Assembly (NCBI RefSeq): GCF_022376445.1
Contig: NW_025955058.1
Coordinates: forward strand, 62,001-126,000
Direction of reading: 5' to 3'
Source: Fomitopsis serialis
Taxonomy: Eukaryota > Basidiomycota > Agaricomycetes > Polyporales > Fomitopsidaceae
DNA length: 64,000 nucleotides
The notes under the pieces are model-generated. The model saw only the letters and a list, made by a program, of their open reading frames with translations. It made no database searches and was not told where the DNA came from. Positions within the stretch are counted from its first letter, which is position 1, and every line of letters starts with the position of its first letter. A program made the position numbers and the translations under genes. This document shows, one piece after another, positions 5,378 to 62,605 of the stretch.

Positions 5378-7980
5378 ATGGCGGACAAGTTTACTACGCC
5401 TGTGAGCAAACTCAGCCGGTTGCCTACGTCCTTATCTCGCTCGCAGACAATGAAGCGCGATTCCCTTGCGGCCGAGCTCGAGCGCGGTAAGTGCCACTCG
5501 CATGTTGCTTTGTTCGAGCACTAACGTCTTGGCTTCCCACCAACGGGTCTCCCATCTCCCACCATGCCAGATCCGCAACTATCTACTGCAAAACGACAGC
5601 AGCGCACGCAGACGTTCGCCTCGCACCTCGCACACGCCTCACTAGAGCGGCAGCTCATGGCCGCGCAAACGGCGCGTGCTGAGCTCGAGACGAAGCTACG
5701 TGAGAAGGACGTGGTCATCGATCGCCTGGAGGGCGATCGTAGGTGGCTTGCTGGGCGAGAAACAGAAGAACGCGAGGAGAAAGAACGTGAGCGTGCCGAG
5801 CGTGCTGAAGAGAAGGTTTGTCGCATACCATTCATTACCCCCTACCGTGTGGCATGGTCGCCTCTTTAACTGTCACATTCTCACCATATGAATAACACAA
5901 TCTAACTCAGTTCTTGCCGATAACAGCGTAAAGCGGACGCCGAGCTACGCGCATTGCGTTCTTCGCTCTCCGCCCTCCGTGAACAACATGACGAACTAAC
6001 GGATGAACACGACTCACTCTCGCGTTCGACCGCCCAAACCCTCTCGGCGCAGAAGTCACAAATCACTACCCTCACGCGACAAGTCTCGCTTCTTCATGAA
6101 GAGCTCACCGAATATCGGCAGATCGCAGAGGAACGTTCGCACGCGCTGGAGGCATTGCGGAGCGAGCTTGACGAAGCGAGCGCGGCCAATGAGAGCTTCA
6201 CGCAGAAGGCAGCTGACGAGGAGACATGGGCGGTCGTACGCGGAGAGCTGAGCCGGCAGGCGGAATATATGCGCGCTCTCGAGGCGGCGAACATGAAGAT
6301 GAACGCAGAACTTGCTGCGCTACGCGAGCGTCATGCGAGTGTCGAGGTGCTGAAGGAGCAGAAGCGCGCGCTGGAGAGAAAGGCACAGGGTGCGGAGGAG
6401 CTCCGCGAGAAGGTCGTAAGACTTGAGGCCGAGTTGGACGCGGCGCGGCGCGAGCGAGAGACGTGGTGCGTAGGTATTCAGGATCGTTGGTGACTCCGCT
6501 CATGAGGTCGTTGCAGGGCCTCAGACAATGCTCAGCCCTCAACTCCCTCCAAGACACCAGTGGGCATCACAAAAGCACTTGCTGATCTACGTCTGAACTA
6601 TGCACGTCTCTTGGAAGAGCACGGATCGACGACTGCGACGCTGAAGCGGCGTGAGGCTGAGATCGCAGATGCAGATCAACGCATCCATGAGACTGAAGCT
6701 TCGGTAGAGGCTCTCCAGGCAGATGCACGCACGCTCAAGGCTGAAGTGGCGCGTAAAGAGCGCGAGAAAGAGCTTGCAGAGAGAGAAGTCTCTTTCCTTC
6801 AGGCCATGGTGGTGCGTGGTTGCTGCCATTCCGAGTCTTCCTCGCAGTCTCTGACCGTCATTGCTCACTGTTGCAGGCTAGTTTTACGGCGGAGGAGTCC
6901 GCGCAGAATGGCGTCGACCTCGATGAAATGACCTCTGAGCGTTTGGAACACCTCGAGTCCCTTGTAGCTGACTACAAGGCTACCGTGCATGAGCTCCAGC
7001 ATGAGCTCGACGCGCTTAGCAAGGCCGGCGCTGTCAAAGGCGGGAGTGCCGCATTGCAGCGGCTACAAGAAGAGCTCGAGGCTGAACGTGCATCGAAGGA
7101 GCTGCTCCAAGCCGGTACGTATTCGTCTCTCACGATCGCTCACATGTGCTGATATTAGAATGATGTCCAGCACTGGAGAAGGCCGAGGAAATGTCCACGG
7201 CGCACGAGGAGCAAGTCGAGAACCTCGAACAGACGCTGTTCGAGCTTCGCGGGGAGATCGGGGCGGGGCGGCACCTCCCACCTGGGGTTCGCGTGCTGAG
7301 CTTGCGTGAAAACCCCGCGCAGCAGTGGGCAGATATGAGTCAAGCGGCGATGGATCGGCTGAAGAAGGAGAACGAAGCGCTGATGAAGCGATTGAAGGAG
7401 CTCGAAGATGCGGGGTCGCGAGTGGGCGGGCAGATGGGGGCTAGGAGCTCGACGAACGGTGGCACGGGAGAAGCTGCAGCGTTGGAAGGGATGGTCCCGA
7501 GGGAGAGCTGGGAGGTTGCTAACAGAGAGAAGATGCGCCTTGAGGAAGAGCTGAAACAGAGGGAGAAGAGACTATTGAGGCTGCAGCAGGTGAATTACTT
7601 TGCTTTGCTTTTCCAGTCGGGCTCGGACTCAACTTGGCCCTCAGATCTTCCAGTCGAAGTCGGCCGAGTTCCGGGACGCCGTCGCTTCCATCCTCGGCGT
7701 GAAGCTCGCTTTCTACCCGAATGGCCAAGTGCGTGTCACGTCGCACTTCGATCTCAACGCAGCGTTTGTCTTCCAGCCGACCGGACCCGCAGGGGGCAAC
7801 GACGGTGCCGGTGGGATGCGAATGCAGCTCGTCGCTCAAGGTGACGGCGGACCGGAAGACTTGCCGCAGCTTATGCGGTATTGGGTCGAGCAAGAGCAGT
7901 GCATACCGGGATTCTTGGCGAGCGTGACATTAGAATGCTACGAGAAGCATAAGATAGAGATGGAGAGAGGAAACCGGTAG
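5378..7980 (+). CDS. mad1: Mad1 spindle assembly checkpoint protein
   Basis: Coiled-coil protein that recruits Mad2 to unattached kinetochores and sits at nuclear pores in interphase. The start gives MADKFTTPVSKLSRLPTSLS followed by almost continuous heptad-rich, Glu/Arg/Leu-rich coiled coil. Introns can be placed at 5487-5570, 5816-5926, 6466-6516, about 6812-6876, 7115-7170 and 7590-7644; each preserves frame, e.g. RETW joins ASDNAQPSTPSKTPVGITK. The C-terminus is the diagnostic RWD-like Mad1 domain (ILGVKLAFYPNGQVRVTS ... LMRYWVEQEQCIPGFLASVT) and ends at 7980. The Mad2-interaction segment was not pinpointed. The frame appears fully intact. Confidence 0.93.
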
Positions 7981-56710: not shown

Positions 56711-56713
56711 TAG
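56711..56713 (+). other. Left target-site duplication (TAG)
   Basis: TAG immediately outside the left CACCGGGCG terminus; the same three bases follow the right terminus at 62603-62605. Confidence 0.65.
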
Positions 56714-58551
56714 CACCGGGCGAGAGTCGGAATCTTTCGTCCCGAAAGATTGGGAAAAGAGTTCGAATCTTTTTACCCATATTTGGTATGAATGATTAGT
56801 AATATGATTGCAAACATTATGTTCGATCATTGTGTGCACAATATTGGAGACAGATTCCTAAAAAGATTGTAGACATTGTTTTGAATCATTCTGTGTGCAG
56901 TATTGAAGACAGATTGGTGTAAAGATTGGAAATGAGTTTTGGTCATAACATCTCTGATCTTTCAATGTAGAAGCTTGCAGAAAGTTCTCAGATGCAGAAT
57001 GAATATTTTGGGCCAAATTGATTGTGAACAGACATCAAAAGGATTGCAGAGTGATAAGTTACAATCTTGTTTCTCCATAATCACATCATGTAATATTGAC
57101 AAATGATTGTGACAGGCTTCACAATCCTCCATGTCTAATGTATTCCAAAGGTCTTTCAAAGGAAGTTTTGAGTTCTGTGAATACTGTCTTTTAGGTATGA
57201 AAGATTGGAAAGTATGATTGCAATCCTATCACAGCACATGTGTGCAGAAAGATGGTGATAGGATTAGAATGCAATTTTGAAGCTTGTGTCTCTGATTGAA
57301 GTGTAACATTGTTCATGATCTCTCCACAAACTCTTCTCCTGAAATATTGGGAACATTGTACTCAAGATTTGGGCATGAAGTATTGGAAATAGATAGCAGT
57401 GGCACACCTAGCTGCAGTGTACCCTCTCAATTCCAACAGCTCACATGAAGAGATACATGAAGTATTGTGACCATGGGGGTGACAAATCATGTTTGTGATC
57501 TTTCAGGGAACAAAGATAGTGAATGAAAGTGTGCCACTCCTAAAAGATTGCAAACATGTGTGTGCCACTTGTGAAAGATTGCAAACAAATGGGTGCCACT
57601 CAGAGCAGATTGTAAAGAAATCAGTACTGATGCCATCTGGGACCAGCCTCTGCATATGTAAACATGGTCAATCACACTGGACTATGACTTGGATAGGCAG
57701 ACAAGTCAATACAGTGACAGGCTGACTAATATATGTAGTACATGTATATGTATAAAGCACATACACTGGATAGTACAGCCTGAACATTGGGACAATTAGT
57801 GGTGTTGCAGGTGATTGTACAGTGTAATTGTACAAGGACATGTAACATGCTTGTACAACTGCCATGCATATGTATTGCTACTGTACAACTACCTGTGCAA
57901 CTGTACAAGGAGTTGTACAACTACTTGTACATCTACTTGTACATAACAACTTGTACAACTACTTGTACATCTACTTGTACAGGGACTTGTACAACTACCT
58001 GTGCAACTGTACAAAGACTTGTACAGCTACTTGTACAAGGGCTGGTACAAGGGCTGGTACAACTACTTGTACAAGTAGTTGTACAACTACTTGTACAGTG
58101 ACTTGTACAAGGGCTTGTACAAAGGCTTGTACAAAGACTTGTACAAGGGCTTGTACATGGGATTTGTACAAGGACTTGTACAAGGGCTTGTACAAAGGCT
58201 TGTACAAAGACTTGTACAAGGGCTTGTACAAAGGCTTGTACAACTACTTGTACAACTACTTGTACAGGGACTTGTACAGGGACTTGTACATCTACTACGT
58301 GCAGTCACAGAGCAGTGCGAGCAGAACTCTGAGGCCGGGCAACGTACAGCACGACGCACACAGTGATCGTGAGCACGTAGGGCCAATTCGCTACGTGCAC
58401 AGACAGCCGATGGATGGACAGCATGCGCGCGCAAGTGAGCAAGCAAGTGGGTGACAAGGCGGGTACAGGGCATGACAACGCCCAGCACGACACAGACACG
58501 GACAGTGACCATATGCATACAGGGTGAATACCCTGTGTGCAAACATGGCCG
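56714..58551 (+). repeat. Left inverted arm
   Basis: Outer AT-rich block 56,714-57,780, TTGTACAA array about 57,820-58,295, inner GC-rich block to AACATGGCCG at 58551, where similarity to the right arm ends. Confidence 0.93.
57820..58295 (+). repeat. Array of TTGTACAA palindromes, left arm
   Basis: About 35-40 copies of an (A)CTTGTACA(A) core spaced mostly 12 bp apart (CTTGTACAAGGG, CTTGTACAACTA, CTTGTACAGGGA). Because the core is its own reverse complement, it translates as repeating LYK/LYN or TCT on either strand; these open frames are a by-product, not genes. Confidence 0.9.
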
Positions 58552-60765
58552 AGGAACGGACCATGTGTGAATGGCCGAAGGACAAGCCTGAGGGAGGGCG
58601 AGTAGGCAGTAGACATACAGGAACGCACAACAGAACACACGCCACCCGCGAGCGCAGAGGGCAAAAGCCCCGCGTACAAACACAGCCGACACGCAGAGCC
58701 ATACCGACGAGCAGCGATGACTGCAAGCGGACGGGAGCGAGCGGGTGACGGGGGAGGGCGAGCAGCTGGGAGAGACAGCCAAGCGGCTGGGAGACAGGCG
58801 AGGACGAGCAAACCGCAGGGCACGGACGGGCAATCGGATGGCGGAGGAGGGCGAGCACACGGCGAGGGAGGGCGAGTGGACGGCAAGGGAGGGCAAGCGG
58901 GTGGCGAGGGAGGGCGAGCAGCTAGAGAGACAGGCAAGCAGCTAGAAGACAGGCGAGAACGAGCGGACAGTGAGGCGCGTGCGCGAGCGAGCAGACGGCG
59001 GTGAAGGGCAGCAAGCGGCTAGGAGACAGGCGAGGACGAGTAGATGGCGGGCGCAGACGGGAGCGAGCAGGTGGCGGGGGAGGCGAGCGGCTGGGAGAGA
59101 CATGCAAGCAGCTGGGAGAGACATGCAAGCAGCTGGGAGACAGACGAGGACGAGTACACAGCGAACGAGGACGGAAGCGAGCAGATGGCGAGGGAGGGCA
59201 AGCAGCTGGGAGATAGGCGAGGACGGATGGACGGCATGCACAGGATACGGCGACGTGCAGCACAGGCTGCACAGCGCAAATGTCCACCGCAGGCACGCAG
59301 AGCTAACACCTTTTATGCAGACGCCTTTCATGTTGACCGAGTCAGCACCTTCGACACCTCGGGGGGCTCCGGGAGGCCTCCTTGGACGTCGGTAGCGTCC
59401 CTCGGTGTTGCAGCCTTCGATGCCTCCTTCGGGATCGTTGGCTTTGACACAACCTCCTGCGGCGTTGCAACCTTGCAGGCTTCCCGAGGCGTAAGCGGGC
59501 TGAGTTCCTCCCTCATCGGTGTCGGAGGTACAGTCGACCTCAATGGCTCTACCCTCAGAACTGCTGGGACCCAAGAAGTCGAGGGCGAGCAGGCATGAAG
59601 CCGAAGACGGAAGGGCAGGCCCGGGTGGGCGGTGGTCGGGTAAGAGGACAAATGCAGGCAGGAAAGAACGTGTTGGCGGGCGGGTGGTCGAGCTAGCAAC
59701 AGGGCGATCACGGGCGTACAAGAACACGCGGACAGGGTAGGGGTGAATGGGCGAGAGAAGAGCAACGAGAACGGGAGGGCAAGCTAACGAGAGGATGGGC
59801 ATACAGGAAAGACTGGCGATGCGGGTGCGAGAGGGCGGGCACGTGGGCATAAGAGGGTAAGCGGGTGGGCACGAGAGTGCAAGCAGGTAGGTGCGAGAGT
59901 GCAAGCAGGTAGGCGCGAGAGGATAAGCGGGCAAGCAAGAGGGCAACAGCGAAAGGGCGAGGGCGAGCCAGGGAGAAGGATGGGAATGGGCTGCAATGTG
60001 AGGCAGGGCGGGCGGGCCATTCAACAGGTGGGCGAACAAAGCAGGCGGGCGCGTAAGCTGAGCAAAGGAGACAGGGAGAGCGCGCGGGCGGGCGTGCAAG
60101 CAAAGAGGGCGAGGGCGGGCACGGACTGGCGGGACTGGCGGACAAATAGGCACTGCAAGTTGTTGCTTGTCAATGCATTTGCTCGAGCATGGTGACTGAA
60201 AACAGAAGCCGTCAGTAGGAATGCTAAAAACGACCGACCTTGGGTTTCACGCCTCTGCTTTCCTGTCTCTTCGTTCACCACTCCTACCCGTCATTCGTTC
60301 TGTCCCTCTTCCTCCGACTGTGCTCGGTTATTGTGCTCAGGCTTGCGCACTCGGGCTAGTGGGACGGCACGAATGCCTCGCGTCGGGATGGCAGTCAATG
60401 ACAGCTCCGCCTAACGGGTCGATATCAATTGTACTGCGGCCTCAATTGATGGCTCAAACGGTGTAGCCACATCACCGGTGTTAGTACCCAGTAAGCTTAA
60501 GTCGCCCGCCTCGGTCGGATCCTTATCAAGTGGTGAGCCAAATGGGACAAAGCGCAGGACCTTGCGTTCGCGCAACAGCCATCTGGTGGTACCGGTGCCA
60601 TCACAATATTTGGTGATGTGATCGAGAAAGCCCGAGTCGGGAGCCTGGGTCGTACTAGTCGAGCTCTATAGCCTTATCGTGAAGATGGTCAGAAGAATTG
60701 TCATCGATGTGCCATGCACATTCACAAACCTTTAAAGAAGGCCTATGGCCATGTTCACCTGCTGA
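58552..60765. other. Central spacer of the palindromic element
   Basis: The part up to about 60,150 is strongly purine-rich on the plus strand (GGGCGAG, GAGGGCGAGC, GGCAAGCGGG) with short direct repeats, such as the 21-bp unit AGCTGGGAGAGACATGCAAGC in tandem at about 59,090-59,135. On the minus strand at about 59,340-59,560 a Thr-Pro-x-Glu/Asp repeat (TPREACKVATPQEVVSKP) looks more gene-like than its surroundings. From about 60,200 to 60,760 composition is ordinary, with a minus-strand run reading CDGTGTTRWLLRERKVLRFV and PFGSPLDKDPTEAGDLSLLG. These two could be captured host fragments. No complete gene. Confidence 0.6.
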
Positions 60766-62602
60766 CGGCCATGTTTGCACACAGGGTATTCACCCTGTAT
60801 GCATATGGTCACTGTCCGTGTCCGTGTCGTGCTGGGCGTTGTCATGCCCTGTACCCGCCTTGTCACCCACTTGCTTGCTCACTTGCGCGCGCATGCTGTC
60901 CATCCATCGGCTGTCTGTGCACGTAGCGAATTGGCCCTACGTGCTCACGATCACTGTGTGCGTCGTGCTGTACGTTGCCCGGCCTCAGAGTTCTGCTCGC
61001 ACTGCTCTGTGACTGCACGTAGTAGATGTACAAGTCCCTGTACAAGTCCCTGTACAAGTAGTTGTACAAGTAGTTGTACAAGCCTTTGTACAAGCCCTTG
61101 TACAAGTCTTTGTACAAGCCTTGTACAAGCCCTTGTACAAGTCCTTGTACAAATCCCATGTACAAGCCCTTGTACAAGTCTTTGTACAAGCCTTTGTACA
61201 AGCCCTTGTACAAGTCACTGTACAAGTAGTTGTACAACTACTTGTACAAGTAGTTGTACCAGCCCTTGTACCAGCCCTTGTACAAGTAGCTGTACAAGTC
61301 TTTGTACAGTTGCACAGGTAGTTGTACAAGTCCCTGTACAAGTAGATGTACAAGTAGTTGTACAAGTTGTTATGTACAAGTAGATGTACAAGTAGTTGTA
61401 CAACTCCTTGTACAGTTGCACAGGTAGTTGTACAGTAGCAATACATATGCATGGCAGTTGTACAAGCATGTTACATGTCCTTGTACAATTACACTGTACA
61501 ATCACCTGCAACACCACTAATTGTCCCAATGTTCAGGCTGTACTATCCAGTGTATGTGCTTTATACATATACATGTACTACATATATTAGTCAGCCTGTC
61601 ACTGTATTGACTTGTCTGCCTATCCAAGTCATAGTCCAGTGTGATTGACCATGTTTACATATGCAGAGGCTGGTCCCAGATGGCATCAGTACTGATTTCT
61701 TTACAATCTGCTCTGAGTGGCACCCATTTGTTTGCAATCTTTCACAAGTGGCACACACATGTTTGCAATCTTTTAGGAGTGGCACACTTTCATTCACTAT
61801 CTTTGTTCCCTGAAAGATCACAAACATGATTTGTCACCCCCATGGTCACAATACTTCATGTATCTCTTCATGTGAGCTGTTGGAATTGAGAGGGTACACT
61901 GCAGCTAGGTGTGCCACTGCTATCTATTTCCAATACTTCATGCCCAAATCTTGAGTACAATGTTCCCAATATTTCAGGAGAAGAGTTTGTGGAGAGATCA
62001 TGAACAATGTTACACTTCAATCAGAGACACAAGCTTCAAAATTGCATTCTAATCCTATCACCATCTTTCTGCACACATGTGCTGTGATAGGATTGCAATC
62101 ATACTTTCCAATCTTTCATACCTAAAAGACAGTATTCACAGAACTCAAAACTTCCTTTGAAAGACCTTTGGAATACATTAGACATGGAGGATTGTGAAGC
62201 CTGTCACAATCATTTGTCAATATTACATGATGTGATTATGGAGAAACAAGATTGTAACTTATCACTCTGCAATCCTTTTGATGTCTGTTCACAATCAATT
62301 TGGCCCAAAATATTCATTCTGCATCTGAGAACTTTCTGCAAGCTTCTACATTGAAAGATCAGAGATGTTATGACCAAAACTCATTTCCAATCTTTACACC
62401 AATCTGTCTTCAATACTGCACACAGAATGATTCAAAACAATGTCTACAATCTTTTTAGGAATCTGTCTCCAATATTGTGCACACAATGATCGAACATAAT
62501 GTTTGCAATCATATTACTAATCATTCATACCAAATATGGGTAAAAAGATTCGAACTCTTTTCCCAATCTTTCGGGACGAAAGATTCCGACTCTCGCCCGG
62601 TG
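60766..62602 (-). repeat. Right inverted arm
   Basis: Reverse complement of the left arm, with the TTGTACAA array at about 61,024-61,500 and the AT-rich block to 62,602. One base shorter than the left arm. Confidence 0.93.
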
Positions 62603-62605
62603 TAG
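62603..62605 (+). other. Right target-site duplication (TAG)
   Basis: TAG directly after the right CCCGGTG terminus, matching the left flank. Confidence 0.65.

Follow-up and report, generated by a model that had tools for sequence, protein, structure and literature searches.

In the 64,000-nucleotide stretch of Fomitopsis serialis DNA that was analysed (hereafter the window), positions 56,714 to 62,602 are occupied by a giant palindromic element that is real and recently mobile. With a probability of about three in four, it is a non-autonomous DNA transposon of the EnSpm/CACTA type with giant foldback-like arms and rearranged host gene fragments, moved by a transposase made elsewhere. Its arms are under concerted evolution: they have exchanged sequence since the palindrome formed, in at least some lineages.

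Architecture of the element

The element measures 5,889 bp and consists of two inverted arms around a centre. The left arm (1,838 bp; 56,714-58,551, plus strand) begins with CACCGGGCG, and the right arm (1,837 bp; 60,766-62,602, minus strand) is its inverted copy; in the arm alignment, the two differ at one base and in a single 1-bp indel, in agreement with the roughly two differing positions given in a preliminary description of this DNA. Arms of such length cannot be chance products. Both ends of the element are CACCGGGCG and read inward as CACCGGGCGAGAGTCGGAATC; the end sequence of the element family is CACCGGGCGAGAGTC. The identical ends and the TAG on either side had likewise been described, and the target duplication could be placed at 56,711-56,713 and 62,603-62,605, the empty site (L066) having a single TAG.

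Each arm is AT-rich on the outside and carries an array of 12-bp units further in. The outer left arm (56,714-57,883, plus strand) contains repeated AAAGATTG-type motifs: AAAGATTG itself occurs six times, compared to at most four occurrences of the commonest 8-mer in 200 dinucleotide shuffles, and AGATTG is found eight times on this strand and once on the other. In each of the arrays, previously noted as palindrome arrays, a 12-bp unit based on TTGTACAA is repeated ~32 times (left, 57,902-58,290, plus strand; right, 61,027-61,414, minus strand). A three-unit array pattern, searched with zero mismatches, is confined to the element: all 62 matches in the genome lie inside the four palindromic copies. 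The centre (2,214 bp; 58,552-60,765) is GC-rich and CpG-rich, and its ORFs are without Pfam match.

Copies in the genome and uninterrupted sites

The preliminary description proposed a genome search for further copies, and the 66-Mb assembly (806 contigs, the window included) indeed holds three more full palindromic ones, on three other contigs and at unrelated sites: C270:26196-34945 (8,750 bp, duplication CAG, its centre enlarged by two long inserts), C21:30366-36447 (6,082 bp, duplication ATT) and C745:57172-62949 (5,778 bp, duplication AAC). All four copies have CACCG..CGGTG ends and arms of 1.79-1.94 kb. Counted by substitutions, arms of different copies are 98.3-99.7% identical; where gaps are counted as well, the figures for C21 and C745 fall to 94-96%.

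Besides the palindromes, the genome contains a degenerate lone arm, starting at C112:13504, which is ~71% identical to the element arm and retains a short array remnant only. A second arm was found neither by a whole-genome search with the lone arm nor in the surrounding 8 kb. At L012:1400-1510 (C112), the lone arm starts a few bases past a tRNA-like gene, recognised by eye, and its T run; ARAGORN, run in bacterial mode, found no tRNA at this place.

The longer of the two inserts in the C270 centre (~1.87 kb; L009:2394-4258) is bounded by inverted ends, TAGTG(C/G)ATTGCAGGGGT, and flanked by what is, as judged by eye, a likely target duplication of 8 bp, ATGGCACA; by these features, we take it to be hAT-like. 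The second (~1.0 kb; L009:5130-6139) has short inverted ends starting with GCGCTGA, and its target duplication is not clear.

Empty sites were sought with the joined flanks of all four copies. Uninterrupted counterparts exist on C472 for the window site, on C279 for the C270 site and on C14 for the C745 site. The joined C21 flanks correspond to a dispersed repeat that this copy had entered, with at least 29 repeat copies matching (40 of the 96 candidates scored); one of them, on C796, was checked at the junction and shows the unoccupied sequence at a locus other than the C21 insertion site. In all four cases (C472, C279, C14 and C796), a single triplet is present at the junction. The window site aligns with C472 over 1,995 bp on the left (zero mismatches, one gap) and over 1,399 bp on the right (12 mismatches). 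C472, C279 and C14 presumably represent the other haplotype, because the assembly has other near-identical contig pairs, such as L045 and L046 (99.8% over 3,387 bp). The search might have turned up neither further copies nor an empty site; with three copies and uninterrupted counterparts at hand, the proposal of a mobile element survived, and the 3-bp duplication is real.

Long palindromes are a hazard for sequence assembly, and the assembly is in 806 contigs, so that mirrored or collapsed contigs might be suspected as the source of the second arm. However, the copies reside on four contigs, with differing flanks on both sides and differing duplications, their array lengths are copy-specific and uninterrupted sites exist; an artefact of this kind is extremely unlikely.

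Homogeneity of the arms

Within a copy, the arms are 99.7-99.95% identical, differing by one substitution in the window copy (plus one indel), five in C270 and one each in C21 and C745. When all eight arms are aligned and the ungapped informative sites are considered, 30 sites group the arms by copy, none groups them by side and none is mixed; eight further changes affect single arms. Most of the by-copy sites (24) fall inside the array and six outside, and the number of independent events is smaller than 30, because one rearrangement of the array alters many columns. Longer differences follow the same pattern: C21 alone has a 106-bp stretch, in both of its arms, and C745 alone lacks stretches of 36 and 11 bp in both arms, where it also has one base that no other copy shows. 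The window copy has no private change common to both of its arms. Since the two arms of a copy share copy-specific changes, the data indicate arm-to-arm conversion.

The junctions between arms and centre are identical to the base in all four copies. The palindrome therefore appears to have formed once, before these copies diverged. Of the two options offered in the preliminary description, very recent formation or continuing conversion, the first is not supported, given the junctions common to the four copies, and the second is supported by the distribution of the informative sites. Each palindrome might instead have been made recently and separately, when a single-armed element underwent inverted duplication, with no conversion thereafter; differences of just one to five substitutions between the arms of a copy would suit such a history, and a degenerate single arm does exist at C112. 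Yet the four copies have not only the same two junctions but also the same centre, which places the palindrome before the copies, and four independent events at identical points are implausible; separate formation is thus very improbable.

Captured host sequence in the centre

Several parts of the centre resemble sequences elsewhere in the genome. Positions 59,363-59,567 are 77% identical to C803:46636-46845 and C423:238113-238322, the repetitive part of a host gene; fragments within 60,399-60,742, with the frame on the minus strand, are 72% and 70% identical to C803:48269-48661 in the host gene. The first of these regions and parts of the second are collinear with C803 and C423. Positions 60,603-60,765 are 86% identical to C168:220519-220677, and this likeness ends two bases into the arm. 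The centre contains rearranged pieces of a host gene. Inspection by eye shows the captured coding frame to be recognisable but broken, and, relative to the C803 gene, one intron is absent from the centre but another is retained; the retained intron implies that DNA was captured. By its motifs, we tentatively take the host gene at C803 to be Hsp70-like; a Pfam search of the gene gave no match, and DnaK was matched once, with an E value of 0.03. Within short GC-rich tandem repeats of the centre (59,090-59,110 region of the window, alignment columns 539-559), a stretch of 21 bp occurs in the window copy only.

CpG transitions account for most differences between the centres: 22 of 31 for the window copy versus C270, 24 of 34 versus C21 and 25 of 30 versus C745. 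The ratio of observed to expected CpG is 0.33 in the arms and 0.93 in the centre, a pattern that is consistent with methylation of the inserted copies. The centre differs more than the arms when the window copy is compared with C270 or C21, and selection on the arms was considered as an explanation; it is not claimed, because the changes in the centre are mostly CpG transitions and the arms are CpG-poor.

Provisional assignment to the EnSpm/CACTA superfamily

According to those parts of the literature that were covered, fungal EnSpm elements combine CAC..GTG ends with 3-bp duplications (PMC12730594), and CNIRT6, an active element of Cryptococcus, pairs CACTG ends with 3-bp duplications of variable sequence (PMC12810828). 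A further CACTA criterion is the presence of short subterminal repeats, both direct and inverted (PMC8978399, PMC8195511); CACTA elements are also commonly non-autonomous and commonly carry captured pieces of host sequence (PMC8195511). The element shares these features: (i) its CACCG..CGGTG ends conform to CAC..GTG in the four copies; (ii) its 3-bp duplications have no fixed sequence (TAG, CAG, ATT and AAC); (iii) the AAAGATTG motifs and the 12-bp arrays constitute subterminal repeats. It departs from the short inverted ends that are usual for the superfamily, though not a strict requirement, by virtue of its kilobase arms. The preliminary description held that no class could be named, which was too cautious: ends and duplications carry the published fungal EnSpm/CACTA signature, the class being provisional.

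In descriptive terms, the architecture is that of a foldback element: long inverted arms, with tandem repeats inside them, enclose a centre that varies. The target duplication of FB (Drosophila Foldback) is 9 bp, and that of PIF/Harbinger elements is 3 bp and TA-centred (TWA). The duplications of the element are 3 bp in all four copies, as opposed to the 8-10 bp of Foldback/Tetris-like elements, and none of the four triplets is TA-centred. Plavaka elements end in TGT..ACA or CATCA..TGATG (PMC12730594), unlike CACCG..CGGTG, and hAT and Zisupton elements produce 8-bp duplications (PMC12730594).

Search for a transposase and an autonomous partner

Eight ORFs of at least 150 aa overlap the window element, and none of them matched a Pfam family, even with E values as high as 0.1 admitted. 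The element is probably mobilised in trans, as had been proposed, because there is no recognisable transposase inside. The genome contains 27 matches to PF02992, the CACTA transposase family, and hence has CACTA transposase genes; none of the matches is on the contigs of the four copies, and the searches described below tied none of them to the ends of the element. A genome-wide search with the 15-bp end and up to two mismatches gave 143 places versus 151 for the reversed control, hence no excess; with zero mismatches, the matches listed comprise the eight ends of the four copies and C112. A looser end pattern matched 15 places versus none in the control, of which nine belong to the element family; the other six are three unlike sequences without further likeness to the element.

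Inverted ends with short duplications were sought around three of the 27 PF02992 places (L072, L073 and L074). Around L072, no inverted ends were found, and L074 yielded one weak inverted pair, CAGTCTCGCTGCG, with two mismatches and a 4-bp duplication, unlike CACCG. L073 (C309) was considered as a second giant palindrome around a transposase and rejected, as it reads by eye as two opposite copies of a small element: a 0.75-kb element is present twice (L073:523-1281 and 5473-6221) in opposite orientation, ~98.5% identical, flanking a CACTA transposase gene. Comparison of two related transposase regions (C168 and C24) did not reveal clear ends, and the L057/L058 boundaries did not help to define any. 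Genome-wide end searches thus did not find the autonomous partner with the same CACCG end that the preliminary description had suggested looking for.

In L074:3711-6920 (C105) and in L055 (C323), a CACTA transposase frame stays open over 1,069 codons; close to its end lies a SAP match that remains below threshold, and 3,477 bp around this frame are identical on the two contigs. A protein search with a transposase frame of 1,068 aa yielded no hit at E up to 1e-20 among 7,996 proteins scored. The fungal kinase family PF17667 has 165 matches in the genome, which suggests a mushroom-type basidiomycete; the profile also matched control genomes, four out of 14, and two of these four exceeded the cut-off.

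Could the element belong to a superfamily other than CACTA, for instance an undescribed transposase group with 3-bp duplications, and resemble CACTA elements in its CACCG ends by chance? The outcome of the end searches would fit, the inverted ends of CACTA elements are normally short, and giant repeat-filled arms, which are also known from Galileo of the P superfamily, say little about class (PMC4168063, PMC3573991, PMC3688188). Against this possibility, the conjunction of CAC..GTG with variable 3-bp duplications is the fungal EnSpm signature (PMC12730594, PMC12810828), and the four duplications fit neither the TA-centred Harbinger target nor the 8-bp hAT and Zisupton duplications; a non-CACTA origin is therefore rather unlikely.

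Comparison with known elements

With regard to ends and duplications, the closest counterparts to the presumed CACTA element are the Puccinia EnSpm families and CNIRT6, which likewise display CAC..GTG and variable 3-bp duplications (PMC12730594, PMC12810828). CNIRT6, however, is ~7.5 kb long with 24-bp inverted repeats and a transposase (PMC12810828), in contrast to the present element, whose arms measure 1.79-1.94 kb and in which no transposase is recognisable. The inverted ends are similarly short in LsC1 of lettuce (28 bp; PMC8195511) and in the CACTA elements of grapevine (5-23 bp; PMC2528002). Those of pvCACTA1 from common bean are called long for the class, but they measure 145-158 bp and belong to a small element with >12,000 copies, compared to kilobase arms and four copies here (PMC4938662). 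The Tpn1 family, the relatives of LsC1 and Cactavine-5 of grapevine resemble the element in another respect: they are non-autonomous or enlarged, and their shared subterminal regions enclose fragments captured from the host (PMC8195511, PMC2528002).

The arms find their parallels outside the superfamily. Galileo has long inverted ends (up to 1.26 kb) with tandem repeats (PMC3573991, PMC3688188); its arm repeats hold extra transposase-binding sites, the longest ends are found on non-autonomous copies and conversion between ends has been proposed by its authors (PMC3573991, PMC3688188). By analogy, the arm repeats of the present element may bind transposase. Galileo differs in its 7-bp duplications, its membership of the P superfamily and its animal host, Drosophila (PMC3573991, PMC3688188), and the arms of the 1.26-kb copy are 95.2% identical, compared to 99.7-99.95% here (PMC3573991). 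Tetris, a foldback element of Drosophila virilis, is alike in having ends of up to 1,735 bp, an inner tandem array and a non-coding centre, and comparable in that three structurally complete copies are described and its partner was not found; 8-10 bp duplications, a 220-bp repeat unit and the animal host set it apart (PMC4079207). In the portions of the reports drawn upon, no functional transposase or partner was found for either Galileo or Tetris (PMC3573991, PMC3688188, PMC4079207).

A CACTA element with kilobase arms is not described in those parts of the open-licence PMC literature that the search covered. Within this scope, CACTA-like ends in fungi are known, and what is unusual is inverted ends far longer than 145-158 bp, the longest found for CACTA elements.

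Proposed mechanism

The assignment to EnSpm/CACTA suggests the following course of events: A transposase of the CACTA family would recognise the CACCG ends, excise the element and insert it with a 3-bp stagger, perhaps assisted in recognition by the AAAGATTG and TTGTACAA repeats of the arms. The single origin of the palindrome, prior to the divergence of the known copies, may have been an ancestor with a single arm, one end of which was duplicated in inverted orientation (compare the degenerate lone arm on C112). Subsequently, the arms of each copy would have been homogenised by conversion, e.g., when a template switch occurred or a break was repaired across the palindrome.

A further idea, which we consider unlikely, makes the palindrome part of the transposition cycle: with each move or repair of the site, one arm would be re-copied from the other through a fold-back intermediate, and a CACTA-type transposase would only be borrowed to cut the ends. 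If both arms were indeed renewed with each jump, the element would have the life cycle of a foldback element, and none was found described for its presumed superfamily.

Implications

The enzyme that moves a foldback-type element has often not been identified, and the upkeep of arm likeness has been little tested. The F. serialis genome offers four young copies together with their uninterrupted counterparts, and the length of the array tells which arm copied which, so that arm conversion is traceable by array length between strains or single-spore offspring. If the CACTA assignment is true, one more superfamily has giant ends filled with repeats, and this would support the published idea that such ends are convergent among unrelated transposons (PMC3573991).
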